Origin: a virus
IMG/VR virus record: IMGVR_UViG_3300026116_000066
Span: 1-39,029 of that record
Direction: 5' to 3' (one strand)
Length of the DNA stretch: 39,029 nucleotides
The notes below the pieces were generated by a model. It made no database searches and was not told where the DNA came from. It was given only the letters and a program-made list of their open reading frames with translations. Shown here one piece after another: positions 256 to 39,029 of this stretch (positions are counted from its first letter, which is position 1; each line of letters opens with the position of its first letter). A program made the translations under genes and the position numbers.

Positions 256-321
256 GGGTCGTCGTCTTTCCTTTCGGTTTGGCTTGCCTTCATCAGGGGG
301 GAGGGTGCCACCACTCCCGCG

Positions 322-337
322 ACCGGGTTGCCCCGGT
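322..337 (-). other. Short GCAA-loop hairpin between two early genes
   Basis: A perfect 6-bp stem (ACCGGG with CCCGGT) closes a GCAA tetraloop on the minus strand. It sits just after the stop of the 199-residue early gene and before the lipoprotein gene. No T-run follows, so it is more likely an mRNA stability, processing or attenuation element than a full terminator. A similar GCAA hairpin follows the lipoprotein gene at 38787-38802. Confidence 0.4.
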
Positions 338-344
338 TTCGGCG

Positions 345-3709: not shown

Positions 3710-4010
3710 TGCGGCCGGTTTAGTCGGCGGCCTCGTGATCGCCGGAATAGTAATCCGCCTCGGCATCCGCGCCGCGCGGGAAGTATGGAAGGCGGTGCGC
3801 CGCGACGTGGAGCGGGAAGCTGCATCGCGCTTCGGTTGCGCCCTGGCGAGCGAGATCCAAAAACGGCACATGAGCGTGGCCGCCCGGGTCGATGAAGCCT
3901 GCGACGCCAAGAACGGTATGTTCCGCAAGGCCGACGCAATCCGCGTGTGCGACCAAATGCTCGAAGGCATCCTGCTCTCCACCACCGAGCTCTACGCGAA
4001 GATCAAGTAG
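3678..4010 (+). CDS. Small protein with one N-terminal membrane segment, 110 aa
   Basis: Residues about 8-30 (LALSAAGLVGGLVIAGIVIRLGI) form a hydrophobic segment followed by an Arg/Lys-rich helical region. This predicts a single-pass inner-membrane protein with a cytoplasmic tail. The C-terminal half is an amphipathic helix with two Cys (ACDAKNGM, RVCDQM). An AAGGAAGG element precedes ATG 3678. Its stop TAG overlaps the GTG start of the large terminase. Position and shape would allow a holin or other lysis accessory, but it is also consistent with an unrelated membrane protein. Confidence 0.6.
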   Translation: MEPTTAQLALSAAGLVGGLVIAGIVIRLGIRAAREVWKAVRRDVEREAASRFGCALASEIQKRHMSVAARVDEACDAKNGMFRKADAIRVCDQMLEGILLSTTELYAKIK

Positions 4011-5554
4011 TGACGCAGGACTTCCAGCTCACCTACAATGCGCCGCCGACGGTGGCCCGGTTTATGGACAGCCGGGCCTTTGTCGCGTGCATCATGGGGC
4101 CGGTTGGATCCGGCAAGAGCTCGGGAGTGTGTTTTAAGCTGCTGCAGCTGAACCTTGAGCAGCCGCCTTCTCCGATCGACGGGATCCGCCGCGCACGCAC
4201 CGTGATCATCCGCAACACCTACAACGACCTCGAAGCCACCACTCTGCAGACGTTCAACGATTGGTTTCCCCCCGAGATCTTCCCGGGATACTACATGCGG
4301 ACGCGCCCGCCAAAGCGCCTGATTGAGTTTCACACCGACCCCGACCCGACCAGCGAGTTTGAGGCGGAGCGGAAGAACGGCCGGCACTACCACATGGAGT
4401 TTTGGTTTATCGCGCTCGACCGCGAAGAGCACGTCCGCAAGCTGAAGTCGCTGGAAATGACGAACGCCTGGATCAACGAAGGCTCCGAAGTCGTTTATGT
4501 GATCTACAAACACCTCACCACCCGCGTCGGCCGCTACCCGGCGATGCGCCATGGTGGGGCTCCGCAGCGTTGTGTGCTGATTGATACCAACCCCCCGGAC
4601 AAAAAGCATTGGATCCACGACGTTTTCGAGAAGAAAAAGCTATATCCGATTTATAAGCAGCCCTCCGGCCTGGCTCCCAATGCCGAAAACATTGAAAACC
4701 TGCCAGTTAATTACTACATCGAAATGATGAAAAACCTCGATGAAGATGAAATTGAGGTACTGGTTAAGGGCAATTTCGGCTCGATAAAGCGTGGCGAGCC
4801 GGTTTATGGCAAGTTTTTCAACTCGAGCATCCACGTCGCCAACGAAAACCTCGATGCGCTGCCGAAGGAAATGAACGTGCCGCTCCACATCGGCGTCGAC
4901 TTTGGCCTCACCCCCGCCGCCGGCGTCTGGCAGAAGCGGCCGAACGGGCAATGGGTGATGCTGGCCGAGTTTGTGCCGGTGGACAGCAAGGGCGACCTCA
5001 TCGTCATGGGGGCCGAGCAGTTTGCGCCGGCGCTCAAAACCTTCCTGGGCGAGCGGTTCGGCGTCGGCTACCCCTACATGATGCACGGCGACCCTGCCGG
5101 CAACCACCGCAGCGAAACCGACAGCACCGTTACTCCCATGACGGTATTTTGGAAAAAGGGGCTGAATATCCACCCCGCCCCCACCAACGACCTCAAGGCC
5201 CGCCTGATGTGCGTGCGTAACCCGCTGCGTCGCCTGGTCGACGGCCAGCCCGGGTTGCTGATTGACCCCCGGTGCGAGAGATCCATCGCGGGCTTCGGCG
5301 GCGATTACCACTACCGCAAAACCCGCATTATGGGGGTGGTGAAACTCTCCGATGTGCCGGAAAAGAACGACGCATCGCACATCATGAACGGGAACGAGTA
5401 TGCCCTTTCCGGCGGCGGCGAGTTTCTGAATATCCGCCTGGACGAGGAAGAGGGCGCGACCGAGCTGGTGACGGAGCCGATGGTGATGGACGTGGGCTTC
5501 AACCCACTTTCCGGCCGCAGTAATCAGTGGAAAATGGACAACTCCGATGAATGA
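4010..5554 (+). CDS. terL: Terminase large subunit (DNA packaging ATPase/nuclease)
   Basis: The packaging motor drives DNA into the prohead through the portal and cuts concatemers. The start is taken as GTG 4010, overlapping the previous stop (TAGTG), giving 514 residues. Earlier in-frame codons lie inside the upstream gene. The Walker A motif is GPVGSGKS at residues 30-37. The acidic motif WINEGSE (about 148-154) fits the Walker B/catalytic Glu position. The nuclease domain shows VDFGLTPA (Asp297), HGDPAGNH (Asp361) and NDASH (Asp454), the spaced acidic residues of RNase H-like terminase nucleases. Length is normal for the family. The 3' end overlaps the following gene by 8 nt. Confidence 0.95.
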   Translation: MTQDFQLTYNAPPTVARFMDSRAFVACIMGPVGSGKSSGVCFKLLQLNLEQPPSPIDGIRRARTVIIRNTYNDLEATTLQTFNDWFPPEIFPGYYMRTRPPKRLIEFHTDPDPTSEFEAERKNGRHYHMEFWFIALDREEHVRKLKSLEMTNAWINEGSEVVYVIYKHLTTRVGRYPAMRHGGAPQRCVLIDTNPPDKKHWIHDVFEKKKLYPIYKQPSGLAPNAENIENLPVNYYIEMMKNLDEDEIEVLVKGNFGSIKRGEPVYGKFFNSSIHVANENLDALPKEMNVPLHIGVDFGLTPAAGVWQKRPNGQWVMLAEFVPVDSKGDLIVMGAEQFAPALKTFLGERFGVGYPYMMHGDPAGNHRSETDSTVTPMTVFWKKGLNIHPAPTNDLKARLMCVRNPLRRLVDGQPGLLIDPRCERSIAGFGGDYHYRKTRIMGVVKLSDVPEKNDASHIMNGNEYALSGGGEFLNIRLDEEEGATELVTEPMVMDVGFNPLSGRSNQWKMDNSDE

Positions 5555-5957
5555 CGTGGAGAACCCGCCGCGAGATTGGTATGTGGTTTTTAACGCCGGC
5601 GGCCGCCGGTGGTGGTGGTCGAAATACCTGCAGCCCGGCTTCTCCCATGCCTTCGTCATTGGCGAAATCACCGAGAAGCTCTCCGTTGCGATCGACCCGG
5701 TGTTGCACGGCTGTAACATCATCCATTGGAACGATGAAGCCGAGATTGTGGCCCGCTGCTACGCCTCTTACCCCGACCATACCGTGCTGAAAGTGACGCT
5801 ACCCGGGGAGCCGAGAAAGCTTTTCCAGCTAGAGAGTCATTGTGTTGGGGTGGTAAAGCGTATTATGGGTATTGAAAGTGGTTTGACGCTCACCCCGCAC
5901 GGCCTTTACCGGCTTCTCTGCAGGAAATACGCCGCCACCCAGGTAAATCCATTCTAA
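5547..5957 (+). CDS. Conserved-looking phage protein, possible permuted papain-like (NlpC/P60) fold
   Basis: 136 residues, starting inside the last codons of the terminase (ATGAATGA overlap). The N-terminus is Trp-rich (RDWYVVFNAGGRRWWWSKYLQPGFSHAFVIGEI). His at about residue 34 comes before a Cys in ESHCVGVVKRIMGI (about 98), and TPHGLYRLLCRK follows. The order His then Cys, with the Cys at the start of a helix, resembles circularly permuted NlpC/P60 (papain-like) domains. This is my inference from motif order. A structural or peptidase role linked to the head is possible. Its place between terminase and portal suggests a morphogenesis or entry function. Confidence 0.6.
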   Translation: MNDVENPPRDWYVVFNAGGRRWWWSKYLQPGFSHAFVIGEITEKLSVAIDPVLHGCNIIHWNDEAEIVARCYASYPDHTVLKVTLPGEPRKLFQLESHCVGVVKRIMGIESGLTLTPHGLYRLLCRKYAATQVNPF

Positions 5958-5972
5958 CGGGAGTGTTGTGAA

Positions 5973-6188
5973 ATGTCCGGCCCCAAACAAAAAGGCCCCA
6001 GCCAAGCGGAGCTCGACCTGCAGCGCCAGCAGCAGGATCAAATGGATCAGCAGAAGCGCGATCTCAAGGATCAGGCTGACTCCGCCGCCGCCATCCGCCG
6101 CTCGCGCATGTTCGGGCTGGCGGGCCTGATGAACCAGGACACCGGCGCGGTAGGCGTTCCCGACCGCAAGCAGAAAAACCTCGGATAA
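5973..6188 (+). CDS. Small Gln/Asp-rich helical protein preceding the portal, 71 aa
   Basis: The N-terminal half (QAELDLQRQQQDQMDQ...KDQADSAAAIRRSR) is a charged, probably coiled-coil helix. The C-terminal part has a short hydrophobic piece (MFGLAGLMNQDTGAVGV). GGGAG lies upstream of ATG 5973. Its TAA overlaps the portal ATG (TAATG), so the two are likely translated together. A small gene directly before the portal is common in short-tailed phages. The function is unknown, possibly a head-assembly or minor virion protein. Confidence 0.65.
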   Translation: MSGPKQKGPSQAELDLQRQQQDQMDQQKRDLKDQADSAAAIRRSRMFGLAGLMNQDTGAVGVPDRKQKNLG

Positions 6189-7825
6189 TGGCCGAATACG
6201 TCGCAACAATGCCGAGCGCCGGGAAGGGCGACGATGAAGTAACCTTCCTCCGCGATTTCGTGGACGCGGTGGCACGCCGGCAGCTGTATGAGCCGACGAT
6301 GTATGACACCTACCGCTGGTTGATCCCCACCCGAGAAAACTTCTACCAGCCGACCGAAGGCCAGCGCCGCGATGAGCACCTTTTCGAGAGCGGCACCCAA
6401 GCGGCCGCCATCAATTTCGCCAACCGCATCCAATCCATCATGCTTCCGCAGTTCCGCAACTGGGCGGGGTTGAGCCCGGGCACCAAGTTCCTCTCGATGC
6501 CCTACGAGGCGCGGCTGCAGGCGCAGATCCAAACCGAAACCGTAACCCAGCTGATGTTCGCTCACCTGCACCAGAGCAACTTCGACAGCGAAGTCACCCC
6601 CAGCCTACTCGACCTGGGCGTCGGCACCGGCGCATTGCTGCTGCAGCCGGGATCTCTCGAAACCAACATCTTCCAGTTTCAATCCGTTCCCCAAGCCGAG
6701 CTCTTCCTGCAGGAGGGGCCTTATGGTTCTGTGGGCACCAAGTTCCGCCGCTACAAAATGGCCGCGCGCAACATCAAGCCGACGTGGGATGATGCCGAGC
6801 TGCCGGAAAAGCTCACCAAAATCATCGATGCGACGCCCAACCAGCAGATTGAGCTCATCGAGGGTATCCGCTACCAGCCGCACCTCGACGAAAAGCGGCC
6901 GTATTGCTACTACGTCCTCGAGCCGACCGAGAAAAAGTTTATCGTAAAGCGCCGCTACCGCACCGATCCACTCATCGTGTTCCGCTGGATGCGGATGCCC
7001 GGTGAGGTTTACGGTCGCGGCCCCTTCATGACCGCCTTGGCCGACGTGAAGGTGATGAACAAGGTGCTCGAGTATATTCTGCAGAATGCGGCGATGGCGA
7101 TTGCCGGCGTCTACATGGTGCAGAGCGGCACGGTGATGAACCCGAAGAAGCTCAAGTTCCAGCCTGGTATGATGATCCCGGTGCTCCCCACCGGCGGCAA
7201 CCACAAGCCCATCGAGCGCGTCGACAACAACGGCAACTTCGATGTCGGCCAGATGATCGTGAAGGACATGCGCGAGGCGGTGAACAACCACCTCTTCAAC
7301 AACCCTCTTGGATCCATCAACGACCCGGTGCGGAGTGCCACCGAGATTTCCTACCGCCAGCAAGAGTTTGCCGACCGCATTGGTTCCAGCTTCGGCCGCC
7401 TGCACTTCGAGCTCATCCAGCCACTCGTCGCGCGGATGCTCGACATCATGGATCAGCTGGGCGTGATCGACCTGGGCGGCCTCAAGGTGAACGGGCAGGA
7501 GCTGAAAGTCAGCGTGGAAAGCCCGATTGCCGAAGCTCAAAACATGGAAGAAGCCATGCGTATCGACCGCTTCATGAAAACCATCCTGGGCACGGCCGGC
7601 ATGCAGGGCCTCACCCTCGGCACCAAGCTCGAGGATTACCCGGAAATCATGGCCGAGCTGTTCAAGGTCACGCCGCGTCTGGTTCGCCCGAAGAGCGAGC
7701 GCGACCAGATGCAGCAGGATCTCGCTGCCGGCATGATGGCCGGTGGTGCTCCGGGGCAACCCGGGGGCGGCGGGATCGACCCGGCCGCGTTGACGAAGGT
7801 TGCAACGGCGGGCGTCGGGAGTTAA
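6188..7825 (+). CDS. Portal (head-tail connector) protein, T7 gp8-like
   Basis: The portal is the dodecameric ring through which DNA enters and leaves the capsid and to which the tail attaches. At 545 residues the protein has the length expected for T7-type head-tail connectors. Recognisable stretches include YRWLIPTRENFYQ and the Asp/Glu-rich N-terminal region, GVGTGALLL (about 147-155), VFRWMRMPGEVYGRGPFMTALADVKVMNKV (about 264-293) and VRSATEISYRQQEFADRIGSSFGRL (about 381-405), a segment typical of this family. The C-terminus is Gly/Pro-rich. It lies between the terminase and the scaffold gene, as expected. ATG overlaps the stop of the preceding small gene. Confidence 0.93.
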   Translation: MAEYVATMPSAGKGDDEVTFLRDFVDAVARRQLYEPTMYDTYRWLIPTRENFYQPTEGQRRDEHLFESGTQAAAINFANRIQSIMLPQFRNWAGLSPGTKFLSMPYEARLQAQIQTETVTQLMFAHLHQSNFDSEVTPSLLDLGVGTGALLLQPGSLETNIFQFQSVPQAELFLQEGPYGSVGTKFRRYKMAARNIKPTWDDAELPEKLTKIIDATPNQQIELIEGIRYQPHLDEKRPYCYYVLEPTEKKFIVKRRYRTDPLIVFRWMRMPGEVYGRGPFMTALADVKVMNKVLEYILQNAAMAIAGVYMVQSGTVMNPKKLKFQPGMMIPVLPTGGNHKPIERVDNNGNFDVGQMIVKDMREAVNNHLFNNPLGSINDPVRSATEISYRQQEFADRIGSSFGRLHFELIQPLVARMLDIMDQLGVIDLGGLKVNGQELKVSVESPIAEAQNMEEAMRIDRFMKTILGTAGMQGLTLGTKLEDYPEIMAELFKVTPRLVRPKSERDQMQQDLAAGMMAGGAPGQPGGGGIDPAALTKVATAGVGS

Positions 7826-7834
7826 TCTCCCGGC

Positions 7835-8248
7835 ATGACAGGACGCATGCACGAAATACCAGAAGGAGAAGGCCAGATCAGCGGGCTCCCCGACACGTCG
7901 GCGGAGCCCGCACCTGCGACCAGCTTTACCCCCGAGCTCGAAGCCGCCGGCATCCGCCCGCGTGACGAGAACGACCCCGCCGAGAAGATGGAAATGCAGC
8001 AAAAAACGCTGCGAGATCTCGCGGGGGAAACCGGCCTCTCTTTCGCCGCCCTCCGCGCCGGCAAGCGCCTACTCGCCAGCGCCGACGGCATCGCCCTCTT
8101 CGTGGCCCTGCGCCAGCTCTACGAGCAAAACCCCTTCACCGCGCCAGGCTGCGACGCCGGCTACCCGCATAAACGTGACGGGCAGGCAGACGTGGTGAGG
8201 CTGTTGCGACGCATCCGCGAAGCTGACATCATAGCAATCGAAAACTAA
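7835..8248 (+). CDS. Hypothetical protein between portal and scaffold, 137 aa
   Basis: The protein has an acidic, Pro/Ala-rich N-terminal part (to about residue 45). A helical region follows (MEMQQKTLRDLAGETGLSFAALRAGKRLLASADGIALFVALRQLYEQNPF), then a short basic C-terminus. The ATG at 7835 has no visible ribosome site, and Met5 (7847) has AGGA only 3 nt away, so the start is uncertain. It is not a recognised family. Position in the capsid cluster suggests an accessory head protein. Confidence 0.6.
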   Translation: MTGRMHEIPEGEGQISGLPDTSAEPAPATSFTPELEAAGIRPRDENDPAEKMEMQQKTLRDLAGETGLSFAALRAGKRLLASADGIALFVALRQLYEQNPFTAPGCDAGYPHKRDGQADVVRLLRRIREADIIAIEN

Positions 8249-8263
8249 TCAAGGAGTAAAATC

Positions 8264-9172
8264 ATGGCTGATACAGGATTACAGGCTGGTGCCGAGGGCA
8301 TCGATGAAGCAGCGGCGGGTGGTGCTGCTGCAGCTGCCGGGGGTGCGAGCGGAAGCGACGCTGCCGGTGGTAATGCGGGCGGAAACAAGGATGGCGCTGC
8401 AGGCGCTGGTGCTGGCGGCGATAAAGGCGCTGCAGGCGCTACCGGCTCTTTCGCCTACGACAAGCCCGGCCTCTCGAAACACTATGGCCTGCCTGAAAAG
8501 TTCGCCAACGCAGAGGATCCCGTCAAGGCCATCGTCGAAGCCTACACCTCCCTCGAGAAGGGGATGCCTAAAGCCCCGGACACCTACGAAATCAAGCTCG
8601 CGGACGACATCACGAAATCGGGCTTCAAGATTGAGGCGGACGACCCCGCGATGAAGGAAGTGCTCGAGATCGGCAAGAAGCACAAGATCTCGGGTGAGGC
8701 GATGAACGACCTGGCGAACCTGCACGCCCGCTTGATGGTGGCGATTAACCCCGATCGTGGCGCTGAAATGACCAAACTTGGTGCAAATGGAACACAGACC
8801 ATCGGCCATAACGTCGCATGGCTCAAGAAGGTTGTCGGTGACAAAACCGTGTCCGATAAACAGGGCTCCCCGAAGCTGGCCGACGTGCTCATCAACATGC
8901 CGCGCACGGCCGACGAAGTGCTCGCCATAGCAGCTCTTCGCCAGGCGGTCGGCATCGATAAGGCCATCCCCACCACACAGACGGATGGCGTAGGAAAAAC
9001 GCCTCTCGACCAGCTGAACGAGCTCAAGGCCCAGCTGCCCGAGCTCACCAGCCACTCCACCAAGGCGAACCCCGCCAAGGCCGAGCAAGTGCGGAAGGAA
9101 ATCGCGGATCTTTTGAACCGCTATCCCGACCTCAAAAAGCAGCGCGACCAGCAGTTCCAATCCGTCGCATAG
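8264..9172 (+). CDS. Capsid assembly (scaffolding) protein, T7 gp9-like
   Basis: Scaffolding protein guides polymerisation of the capsid protein and then leaves the prohead. The first about 60 residues are a Gly/Ala-rich low-complexity segment. The conserved part begins at about residue 62 with a Tyr-Gly-Leu-Pro-Glu-Lys motif (YGLPEKFANAEDPVKAIVEAY), then a Lys/Pro/Asp region (PKAPDTYEIKLAD) and a helical second half with a charged C-terminus, as in T7-type assembly proteins. GGAG precedes ATG 8264. It is followed by a terminator at 9190-9216, so the capsid gene downstream is at least partly transcribed on its own. Confidence 0.88.
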   Translation: MADTGLQAGAEGIDEAAAGGAAAAAGGASGSDAAGGNAGGNKDGAAGAGAGGDKGAAGATGSFAYDKPGLSKHYGLPEKFANAEDPVKAIVEAYTSLEKGMPKAPDTYEIKLADDITKSGFKIEADDPAMKEVLEIGKKHKISGEAMNDLANLHARLMVAINPDRGAEMTKLGANGTQTIGHNVAWLKKVVGDKTVSDKQGSPKLADVLINMPRTADEVLAIAALRQAVGIDKAIPTTQTDGVGKTPLDQLNELKAQLPELTSHSTKANPAKAEQVRKEIADLLNRYPDLKKQRDQQFQSVA

Positions 9173-9189
9173 GAGCGAAATCGTGCATG

Positions 9190-9216
9190 AGCCCCCTTGC
9201 GGGGGCTTTTGCTTTT
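9190..9216 (+). terminator. Rho-independent terminator after the scaffold gene
   Basis: AGCCCCC and GGGGGCT form a perfect 7-bp stem around TTGC, followed by TTTTGCTTTTT. It separates the scaffold gene from the capsid gene and implies a new promoter, or partial read-through, for the capsid gene. Confidence 0.85.
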
Positions 9217-9231
9217 TGCGATGTGTGATGT

Positions 9232-9371
9232 GACGGCGTGAATGGATAATCGCATCACGGCAGACCCGACGGCAACGAGCGGATAATCTAGCCAAGCGAC
9301 CCGGCACCAGCTGCCTCCCGGTAGGGGGAAGGCCCTACAAGCACCGACCCGACGGCAACGAGCGGATAATC
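9232..9371 (+). repeat. Three-copy GACGGC...GGATAATC repeat upstream of the capsid gene
   Basis: Two perfect 26-base copies lie at 9263-9288 and 9346-9371 (they begin GACCCGACGGC and end GCGGATAATC), 83 bp apart. A degenerate copy is at 9232-9251 (GACGGCGTGAATGGATAATC). Each ends with a GATAAT -10-like hexamer, but no shared -35 is seen at the usual distance. Their position, between the terminator and the capsid gene, makes tandem promoters or activator-dependent promoters likely. A hairpin (GTAGGG/CCCTAC, 9321-9338) lies between copies two and three. Confidence 0.7.
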
Positions 9372-9416
9372 GAGGCGAAGGCAAAAAAGAATTGAAACCA
9401 ACTAGGAGATACTTCG

Positions 9417-10313
9417 ATGGCCGATAACACCGTCACCGATTACCTGTCTGGTGTAGGTCGTGAGGAATACGACTCCAACGTGAAGCAGGCCTACCAGGCC
9501 GAAGGCGACATGCTGGTTCGTAGCGTGATGTTCAAGCCTTACAAGGGCAAGAAAGTCTACTTCCGCCGCACCAACAACAAAAAGCGCATGCAAGAGCGCA
9601 CCGGCTCGAGCTTCCAGCCCGTCACCAACGATGGCCTGCTGCACAGCCTGATCCCTTGCCCGATCCGCAAGTTCCACCTCACCACTTTCAGTGATGAAAT
9701 GGATCGCGAAACGGTGGATTTTGATGAAATCCCCCTGATCGGTGAAGCCCACGGTAAGGCCGCCCGCCGGATGCGTGACCAGGTTATTCTGGACGCCCTG
9801 GCCCAAGCCCTCACCGATGGCATCATCCCGGCCGCCAACATTATCAGCGTTGATTTTGGTGGCACCGGCAGCAACCTGCTCTTGGATAAGACTTCCGAGC
9901 TGCGCCGCATCATGAACAAAACGAGCATTCCGATGAATGATCGTGCGTTGGTGGTCGGTTCCAGCCAGGAGAGCTTCTACCGCGAGCAAACCAAGGTTGC
10001 GTCCGTCGACTTCAACGACCAGAAACCGCTCGCCGGCGGTGGCCTCATGATGAGCCACAACGGCTTCGGCTTCTACGTCGTGCCCGACATGGACGAAGGT
10101 GGCCTGCCGATCGACGCCAACAACGTGCGTACCTGCTACAGCTACTCTAAGGGTGCTGTTGGCTTCACGTCCGTTATGGAGCCGACCGTCAAGGCGGGTG
10201 ACAACCTGAACGTGCTGGCCTATCAATACAGCACGATCATGATGTGCTCCGCCGTGGTCATTGACCCCGCCGGTGTGTTCGTCATTTACTGCGACGAGGA
10301 CGACACGGTTTAA
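9417..10313 (+). CDS. Major capsid protein
   Basis: 298 residues forming the icosahedral shell. The start ATG 9417 follows AGGAG at about 8 nt. The sequence is that of a HK97-fold capsid protein of short-tailed phages: an N-terminal arm (residues 1-35), the FKPYKGKKVYFRRTNNKKRMQERTG loop, the DEMDRETVDFDEIPLIGEAHGKAARRMRDQVILDAL helix (spine) and the C-terminal domain ending VIDPAGVFVIYCDEDDTV. It lies directly after the scaffold. A terminator before it, repeated promoter-like elements in its leader and a strong hairpin after it set it apart as a separately regulated, highly expressed unit. Confidence 0.93.
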   Translation: MADNTVTDYLSGVGREEYDSNVKQAYQAEGDMLVRSVMFKPYKGKKVYFRRTNNKKRMQERTGSSFQPVTNDGLLHSLIPCPIRKFHLTTFSDEMDRETVDFDEIPLIGEAHGKAARRMRDQVILDALAQALTDGIIPAANIISVDFGGTGSNLLLDKTSELRRIMNKTSIPMNDRALVVGSSQESFYREQTKVASVDFNDQKPLAGGGLMMSHNGFGFYVVPDMDEGGLPIDANNVRTCYSYSKGAVGFTSVMEPTVKAGDNLNVLAYQYSTIMMCSAVVIDPAGVFVIYCDEDDTV

Positions 10314-37917: not shown

Positions 37918-38244
37918 TCAAGCGGCGCGTTGATCGATTTCAACCGGCCCCTCCCTGAAAAGGGTGAGCTGGGCAGGCATGGGTTGCGGTGGGATTTGCT
38001 GGGCCTGCTTGGGTTCCGGCTGTTGCCCCTCGAGCTGGGCGACGTTGTAGAAGGAACACAGGCGCTCCCCCATCATGAGCTTCACCGGCTCGGCCCCGCG
38101 CTGGATGGTGAGGCCCCGGGTGGCAGCTTGGGCGCGGGTCAACCAATCCCCGCGCTTCCAACCCGCCGCCGTTGCCGCCTTGTCGAGCAGCTTCACGGCT
38201 TCGCGCTTGAACTCGTACCCGCTGATTATGTTGTGGTGATACAT
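37918..38244 (-). CDS. Hypothetical protein, weak ArdC-like similarity, 108 aa
   Basis: The segment GDWLTRAQAATRGLTIQRGAEPVKLMM (about residues 32-58) resembles the WLT-x-KQA...GG-x-RKGEKG...V pattern of the ArdC/DUF1738 N-terminal ssDNA-binding domain. That is a low-confidence inference from pattern. The rest is a helical N-terminus and a Pro/Gln-rich stretch (QPEPKQAQQIPPQPMPAQ). GGGGAGG precedes ATG 38244. If the resemblance is real, an anti-restriction or ssDNA-protecting role would fit an early gene. Confidence 0.6.
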   Translation of the reverse strand: MYHHNIISGYEFKREAVKLLDKAATAAGWKRGDWLTRAQAATRGLTIQRGAEPVKLMMGERLCSFYNVAQLEGQQPEPKQAQQIPPQPMPAQLTLFREGPVEIDQRAA

Positions 38245-38708: not shown

Positions 38709-38786
38709 CGGTTTACCCTTTCATTGTTGCCGCCTGCAAAGGGCGGGGCCTGCCATCATCGGGCGGGGGCGGCCAGCTCTCCCGCG

Positions 38787-38802
38787 ACGCCCTTGCGGGC
38801 GT
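38787..38802 (-). other. Short GCAA-loop hairpin after the lipoprotein gene
   Basis: ACGCCC and GGGCGT form a 6-bp stem around GCAA on the minus strand, 6 nt downstream of the TAA of the transglutaminase-like lipoprotein. It has no T-run. Together with the hairpin at 322-337 it brackets that gene. Confidence 0.35.
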
Positions 38803-38808
38803 TTCGGC

Positions 38809-39029
38809 TTACTTACAGTCTTCCTCCCCGGCGCGGATGAGGTGGGAGAAGCGCACATCGCTCACCCAATCCCCAACCCGGGCGAAGGCGTGCCCGGTTC
38901 CATCCGGCAGGCGGCAGAGTGTCACCGGCTCGGGGCTCATTCCCGCCGCGATGGCGTCCACCGTCACCGTGAAAGCGAAGGTGGCGCAATTTCCAGCGCC
39001 GACGGTTCCCGGCTCAATCCAGCGGTAAT
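38809..39029 (-). CDS. Transglutaminase-like cysteine peptidase lipoprotein, C-terminal part (continues at left end)
   Basis: This fragment reads YRWIEPGTVGAGNCATFAF, then VTLCRLPDGTGHAFARVGDWVSDVRFSHLIRAGEEDCK and stops at 38809. The GNC Cys, the GHAF His and the VSD Asp have the order and spacing of the catalytic triad in bacterial transglutaminase-like cysteine peptidases. Read with the left-end fragment and the GTAAT overlap collapsed, they are Cys98, His130 and Asp141 of a 156-residue lipoprotein. A blunt join without collapsing the overlap would create a stop after about 25 codons, which supports the overlap. Substrate unknown. Confidence 0.7.
   Translation of the reverse strand, partial: YRWIEPGTVGAGNCATFAFTVTVDAIAAGMSPEPVTLCRLPDGTGHAFARVGDWVSDVRFSHLIRAGEEDCK

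Follow-up and report, generated by a model that had tools for sequence, protein, structure and literature searches.

Hammerhead ribozymes have been known in phage intergenic regions since 2011. Perreault et al. (2011; PMC3088659) described type II hammerheads and reported that prophage genes, singly or in short blocks, often have several hammerheads around them. In that work tandem hammerheads cleaved in vitro, and the A. tumefaciens ones did so in E. coli as well, several core variants were slow or inactive, and circular or spliced products were sought but none were found. Among the transglutaminase-like cysteine peptidases of the BTLCP family, LapG is the best studied (PMC3032545). In DvhG, which has a LapG-like core, the double change D316A/E318A in the calcium site inactivates the enzyme (PMC13090378), and in Caulobacter the BTLCP HvyA employs a catalytic C-H-D triad to prevent capsulation, thereby allowing phage infection (PMC4241560).

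We analyzed a 39,029-nt stretch of viral DNA (the window), comprising the whole of IMG/VR record IMGVR_UViG_3300026116_000066, on which an earlier note had placed a lipoprotein gene with a transglutaminase-like cysteine peptidase domain at 38809-39029. The gene is real, but these coordinates hold just its C-terminal half, the N-terminal 85 codons lying at 255-1 (Table 1). Overall, we consider it likely that a BTLCP-type lipoprotein gene is situated between two self-cleaving type II hammerheads, that it is excised as a single-gene mRNA, and that its product alters the cell surface. The reading frame, both ribozyme structures and the BTLCP-like profile match were computed, and are taken in turn below.

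Table 1. Features at and around the lipoprotein gene, in positions of the window.
Feature	Positions	Strand	Details
Lipoprotein gene, N-terminal 85 codons	1..255	minus	ATG start 255-253; from translation
Type II hammerhead ribozyme B (predicted)	277..344	minus	RF02276 32.6 bits, E 0.006; R2 50.2 bits
Gene upstream of ribozyme B, same operon, 199 aa	345..944	minus	weak match to a PHROG of unknown function, E 2.4e-4
Gene downstream of ribozyme A, same operon, 149 aa	38259..38708	minus	no function assigned
Type II hammerhead ribozyme A (predicted)	38744..38809	minus	RF02276 35.4 bits, E 0.0011; R2 51.2 bits
Lipoprotein gene, C-terminal part	38809..39029	minus	Cys98, His130, Asp141; TAA stop 38811-38809

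The lipoprotein gene spans the contig ends, running on the minus strand from 255 to 1 and then from 39029 to 38809. The sequence GTAAT is common to both ends of the 39,029-base record, and when this 5-base overlap is removed, translation of the joined ends gives one frame of 156 residues. Plain abutment of the ends is out of frame with many stops, and only the overlap-removing join keeps the frame. IMG/VR classifies the record as linear, without an end repeat. The same phage is represented by another contig (L002), which terminates within the lipoprotein gene and cannot confirm the join, and no homologue spanning the junction was found. Independent support comes from the alignment with BTLCP proteins, in which the catalytic G-[DN]-C is preceded, at a distance of about 10 residues, by a D-x-W motif. 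In the phage protein this motif is completed across the junction, with D84 derived from one contig end and W87 from the other, and the distance from D-x-W to the catalytic Cys is kept. Together, the frame and the D-x-W register support the view that the lipoprotein gene runs across the contig ends as one gene, as had been proposed.

The N-terminal layout of the joined frame consists of a 30-residue n-region, a hydrophobic stretch followed by the lipobox (VALAAAAIAGACALSGC, L49-S50-G51-C52; LSGC), and a helix region up to Y85. The lipobox, a motif read by eye, conforms to [LVI][ASTVI][GAS]C. The 30 residues ahead of the hydrophobic stretch are long for a signal peptide, which counts against a lipoprotein. 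The joined frame does have the hydrophobic signal and lipobox of a bacterial lipoprotein, and we infer Cys52 to be lipidated.

The earlier note had also described GCAA-loop hairpins bracketing the gene. These are present on both sides, but what had been missed is that each belongs to a larger element: based on sequence and structure models, each hairpin is predicted to form stem III of a type II hammerhead ribozyme capable of self-cleavage. In the Rfam search, RF02276 was the only family convincingly matched in the window, on both sides of the gene, on the same strand and over the whole model. Both matches fall under the Rfam Hammerhead_II gathering cut-off of 37 bits, a curated score threshold. 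Ribozyme B, upstream of the lipoprotein gene, begins 1 nt past the stop codon of the preceding gene, and ribozyme A begins at the lipoprotein stop codon. These are the only two hammerheads found in the record, and they bracket exactly the lipoprotein gene. Both elements have the block order GAAA, stem III, UH cleavage site, stem I and CUGANGA, with stem II open; that is, GAAA and an A-U-closed stem are followed by GUC, then by CUGAUGA (CCGAUGA in A) and a GGC that pairs with the first GCC. In ribozyme B, the parts are stem II GCC/GGC, the core GAAA plus CUGAUGA, and stem III with its GCAA loop. The two GCAA hairpins also share their flanks, in the arrangement GCCGAAAC-[stem-GCAA-stem]-GUCGCGGGAG, for which no match is expected in shuffled sequence, and the same core is present in other viral contigs. 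Cleavage is predicted at GUC^G between 321 and 320 in ribozyme B, and between 38786 and 38785 in ribozyme A.

To assess these matches with an independent model, we relied on a type II pattern search of viral contigs, which returned seven further loci besides the same phage. Six of the seven were scanned with Rfam, and four of these six match RF02276 above the cut-off. Most other type II loci that we inspected place the ribozyme 2-20 nt past a stop codon and ~20-30 nt ahead of the next start. A covariance model, R2, was derived from 13 elements at seven loci of other phages, with the window elements excluded. In the 13-element alignment, 86% of cells are paired, compared to at most 48.5% when the alignment is slid, and the covariation score is 0.382 compared to 0.130 for shuffled alignments (0/500). 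On the window, R2 scored 51.2 bits for ribozyme A and 50.2 bits for ribozyme B, with the next best place at 10.3 bits; E-values from R2 are rough, and this gap in bits is the safer measure. Neither window element was picked up by a regular-expression hammerhead scan that required stems I and II to be perfect, since each has an additional nucleotide following A9, a trait shared with the reference elements, and stem I of ribozyme B contains one C-C mismatch.

The two elements differ in how closely they conform to the consensus. Ribozyme B has a canonical core in which all invariant positions are conserved (C3 U4 G5 A6 N7 G8 A9, G12 A13 A14, A15.1-U16.1 and H17), and its minimum-energy fold is a three-way hammerhead junction. 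Ribozyme A has C for U at core position 4 (U4C, CCGAUGA), and at minimum energy it is predicted to adopt a competing structure (-28.9 kcal/mol, compared to -22.8 kcal/mol for the hammerhead without pseudoknot). Possible pseudoknots are UGGC (loop I) with GCCA (3' tail) in B, and GGCC with GGCC in A; covariation between loop I and the 3' tail was suggestive but not significant in a permutation test (p 0.06 for type II, p 0.11 for type I). Given U4C and the competing fold, ribozyme A may cut poorly, and its activity is less certain. It is accordingly conceivable, at rather less than even chances, that B is active while A is a decaying or slow copy, in which case ribozyme cleavage would define the lipoprotein message at its 5' end only. 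This is consistent with the presence of U at position 4 in all 13 of the 13 reference type II elements, with the competing minimum-energy fold, and with the slow or inactive core variants of Perreault et al. (PMC3088659). However, A outscores B in both covariance models, its stems and H17 are intact, and C4 is also found in a type I element (L006a) of another phage array.

With regard to the enzyme, direct searches gave little. Pfam (hmmscan) and PHROG scans of the 156-aa protein returned nothing significant, PF06035 had no match in a six-frame search of the record, and neither a PDB sequence search nor tblastn of INPHARED with the phage protein produced anything significant. In viral contigs, the only close protein relative was in the other contig of the same phage, and a terminase scan for related phages likewise recovered the same phage only. 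The sole match of a genome-wide scan (L009) was rejected as RibD, matched through the chance string CRLPDGTG. Single-sequence AlphaFold2 prediction of the C-terminal 72 aa gave an uninformative model (pLDDT 50), too poor for a fold search.

Profile comparison was more productive. Twelve BTLCP proteins were obtained through a tblastn search of annotated phages and plasmids that used a short catalytic-region consensus, written from general knowledge, as query, and all 12 individually match Pfam PF06035. One further BTLCP gene near a hammerhead (L063) was set aside, as the two are ~10 kb apart and not linked. The profile search against the BTLCP family that the earlier note had called for was clearly positive: hhalign of the 12 PF06035 members against the phage protein gave a score of 42.4 (E 2.7e-6, probability 88.6, 100 columns), compared to a best score of 20.8 among 300 shuffles of the part after the lipobox. 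In hmmsearch, the phage protein ranked first among 2337 sequences, made up of itself, 2000 shuffles and the open frames of the window. In the joint alignment (A2), G96, C98, H130 and D141 are invariant and the C-H-D triad is in register, so the proposed numbering of the triad as Cys98/His130/Asp141 is correct. Based on this profile match, the protein appears to be a divergent BTLCP-like lipoprotein, outside PF06035 proper and too distant for Pfam; as it matches no Pfam model, we call it BTLCP-like rather than a PF06035 member. The enzyme class named earlier is thus probably right in the broad sense, given the match in order and spacing of the catalytic residues, but it lacks a direct Pfam or PHROG match. 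The hammerhead pair is both better supported and more informative than this enzyme reading.

The analogy with LapG-type enzymes that release adhesins fared less well. In the phage protein, N97-C98-A99 replaces D-C-E, and both acidic calcium ligands beside the catalytic Cys are absent; N97 occupies a column where Asp is invariant in the 12 BTLCP proteins. Since the acidic ligands essential in DvhG are N97 and A99 here, the analogy is weak. The superfamily and the catalytic order are shared with LapG and DvhG, but the phage protein is without calcium ligands and its anchoring differs, LapG being soluble and without lipidation. Furthermore, neither LapD nor a large adhesin was seen among the phage proteins scanned. 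A LapG-type protease that cleaves a host surface adhesin, causing infected cells to detach or progeny to be released, is therefore improbable despite the BTLCP-like profile match with C-H-D and the standing of LapG as the best studied BTLCP (PMC3032545), given the inactivity of D316A/E318A DvhG (PMC13090378), the lack of an identified LapD, and the soluble, non-lipidated nature of LapG.

HvyA is a better functional precedent than LapG, and the closest one. It shares a periplasm-facing BTLCP domain with a C-H-D triad, and its activity alters phage sensitivity via the capsule; it differs in being a host gene product that is soluble, not lipidated, and 272 residues long. Nor is a lipid-anchored cysteine peptidase of a phage as unusual as had been supposed. 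BTLCPs are annotated in Rhizobium phage RHph_I4 and in Shewanella phages 3/49 and 1/4, and they share export, C-H-D, similar spacing and D-x-W with the protein described here. That of Shewanella phage 1/4 also has a lipobox, LIITGC, and begins MKLLLTLILLIITGC, a lipoprotein signal. The window protein differs from known BTLCPs in having G-N-C-A in place of G-D-C-[ED], a short C-terminus and no direct Pfam match, and in Shewanella phage 3/49 the BTLCP gene comes after the tailspike, not in an early operon.

The placement of the gene in an early operon was upheld in part. The left-hand region of the minus strand encodes an ERF-like annealing protein and a Cas4-like exonuclease, and a leftward operon that also carries recombination genes is consistent with early genes, but 'early' itself is deduced from this gene content. 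The terminase is most similar to those of podophages of Gram-negative bacteria, which is consistent with a host that has a periplasm. The second gene after ribozyme A (37918-38244, minus strand) has a weak match, below cut-off (E 0.0011), to ArdcN, the ArdC N-terminal domain (anti-restriction); the antirestriction gene ardA neighbours hammerheads in A. tumefaciens (PMC3088659).

For cleavage in the cell, enzymatic activity, target and purpose, we infer the following course. The lipoprotein gene, third in the leftward operon, would be transcribed within a polycistronic mRNA, and each ribozyme would cut after GUC (321|320 and 38786|38785), freeing a 559-nt mRNA with the lipoprotein gene only. 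This mRNA would open with the stem I hairpin, at the head of a 65-nt leader, and close with a 23-nt trailer whose last elements would be the GCAA hairpin of stem III and a 2',3'-cyclic phosphate. After type II cleavage, stem III remains at the 3' end of the upstream product and stem I at the 5' end of the downstream one, so that a gene between two such ribozymes would acquire a hairpin at both ends, and these hairpins could plausibly uncouple the stability and translation of the message from those of its neighbours. The protein would be exported, lipidated at Cys52 and anchored at the periplasmic face of the membrane, where Cys98, His130 and Asp141 would hydrolyse or transamidate an envelope protein. 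By analogy, the most likely role would be a change to the surface of the infected cell, either superinfection exclusion or capsule control. The most specific form of this account, in which the hammerhead pair is a gene-specific device that excises a hairpin-capped message from the early polycistron, and a calcium-independent BTLCP lipoprotein with its own expression level remodels the host surface, is offered tentatively and is on balance unlikely to be correct in every part.

Two other explanations have very little to recommend them. One, in which the purpose of cleavage is circularisation or a stable excised RNA and not translation of the lipoprotein, draws on the ligatable 5'-OH and 2',3'-cyclic phosphate ends and was raised as a possibility by Perreault et al. 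(PMC3088659), but is highly improbable given that the same study found no such products and that the excised piece carries an intact gene with its own leader. It is equally far-fetched to read the GCAA hairpins as plain, non-catalytic stem-loops that stabilise mRNA or terminate transcription. Each does have a strong GC stem and a GNRA loop directly past a stop codon, like stabilisers, but the conserved part exceeds the hairpin in exact type II order (GCCGAAAC ahead, GUCG behind, stem I, CUGAUGA or CCGAUGA in A, and GGC), a terminator U-run is absent past both stems, and the terminator scan, whose range included element B, did not list it.

Several other hammerhead loci were encountered. In L102 (IMGVR_UViG_2744054895_000001), the 6 kb spanned by positions 3742-9597 contain seven type II hammerheads together with two pistol ribozymes, and nearly every one immediately precedes a gene, forming a ribozyme-punctuated operon in which two ribozyme classes are mixed; megablast found no similar phage in INPHARED. 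In the cultured Streptomyces phage Thestral (L098; MH651190), about a dozen type II matches to R2, at about 42.5-51.2 kb, were obtained in 13.8 kb of sequence, almost all in gaps between annotated early genes, and none are annotated in the stretch viewed. One adjoins an OCR-like antirestriction gene, and 61 Streptomyces phage records are similar to this stretch.

Type I hammerhead-like arrays were observed in L003, L004, L005, L006 and L060 (CCCGC CUGACGA U - stem II - GAAAC - stem III - GUC GCGGG). Their elements typically lie just ahead of a gene's AAGGAGG site, and the structure is backed by a sliding control. Rfam gave no hammerhead match in these arrays (none in L003-L006 even at E 5, and none in L060 with the gathering cut-off applied), possibly due to the extra U after A9. 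A narrow type I pattern matched 77 viral stretches. The arrays of L004-L006 and the type II elements of the window share the exact string GCCGAAAC..GCAA..GUCGCGGGAG; deleting the gene between two type I units would leave the type II order, which may be how the permutation arose. At 2063 and 2635 of L006, the CUGANGA block is now CCAAACG with stems I and III kept, and these elements are probably dead ribozymes within the array.

With two ribozymes in the record, one gene between them, defined predicted cuts and a 559-nt product, the case is about as simple as possible, and the hammerhead bracket provides a testable account of the expression of one gene. Thestral, being cultured, offers a laboratory system for the same question. 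Moreover, a BTLCP-like phage lipoprotein without the calcium site would test whether the family can act on the envelope independently of LapG, in the manner of HvyA. Compared with the prophage type II hammerheads of Perreault et al. (PMC3088659), the window elements share the permutation, the core order, the intergenic position, past one stop codon and ahead of the following gene, and the occurrence of several copies per phage operon; they differ in that the record holds only two copies around one lipoprotein gene, that A carries U4C, and that both score just under the Rfam cut-off. Hammerheads flanking one phage gene are thus an arrangement already known, and the novelty lies in this particular pair, in its cargo and in the phage.
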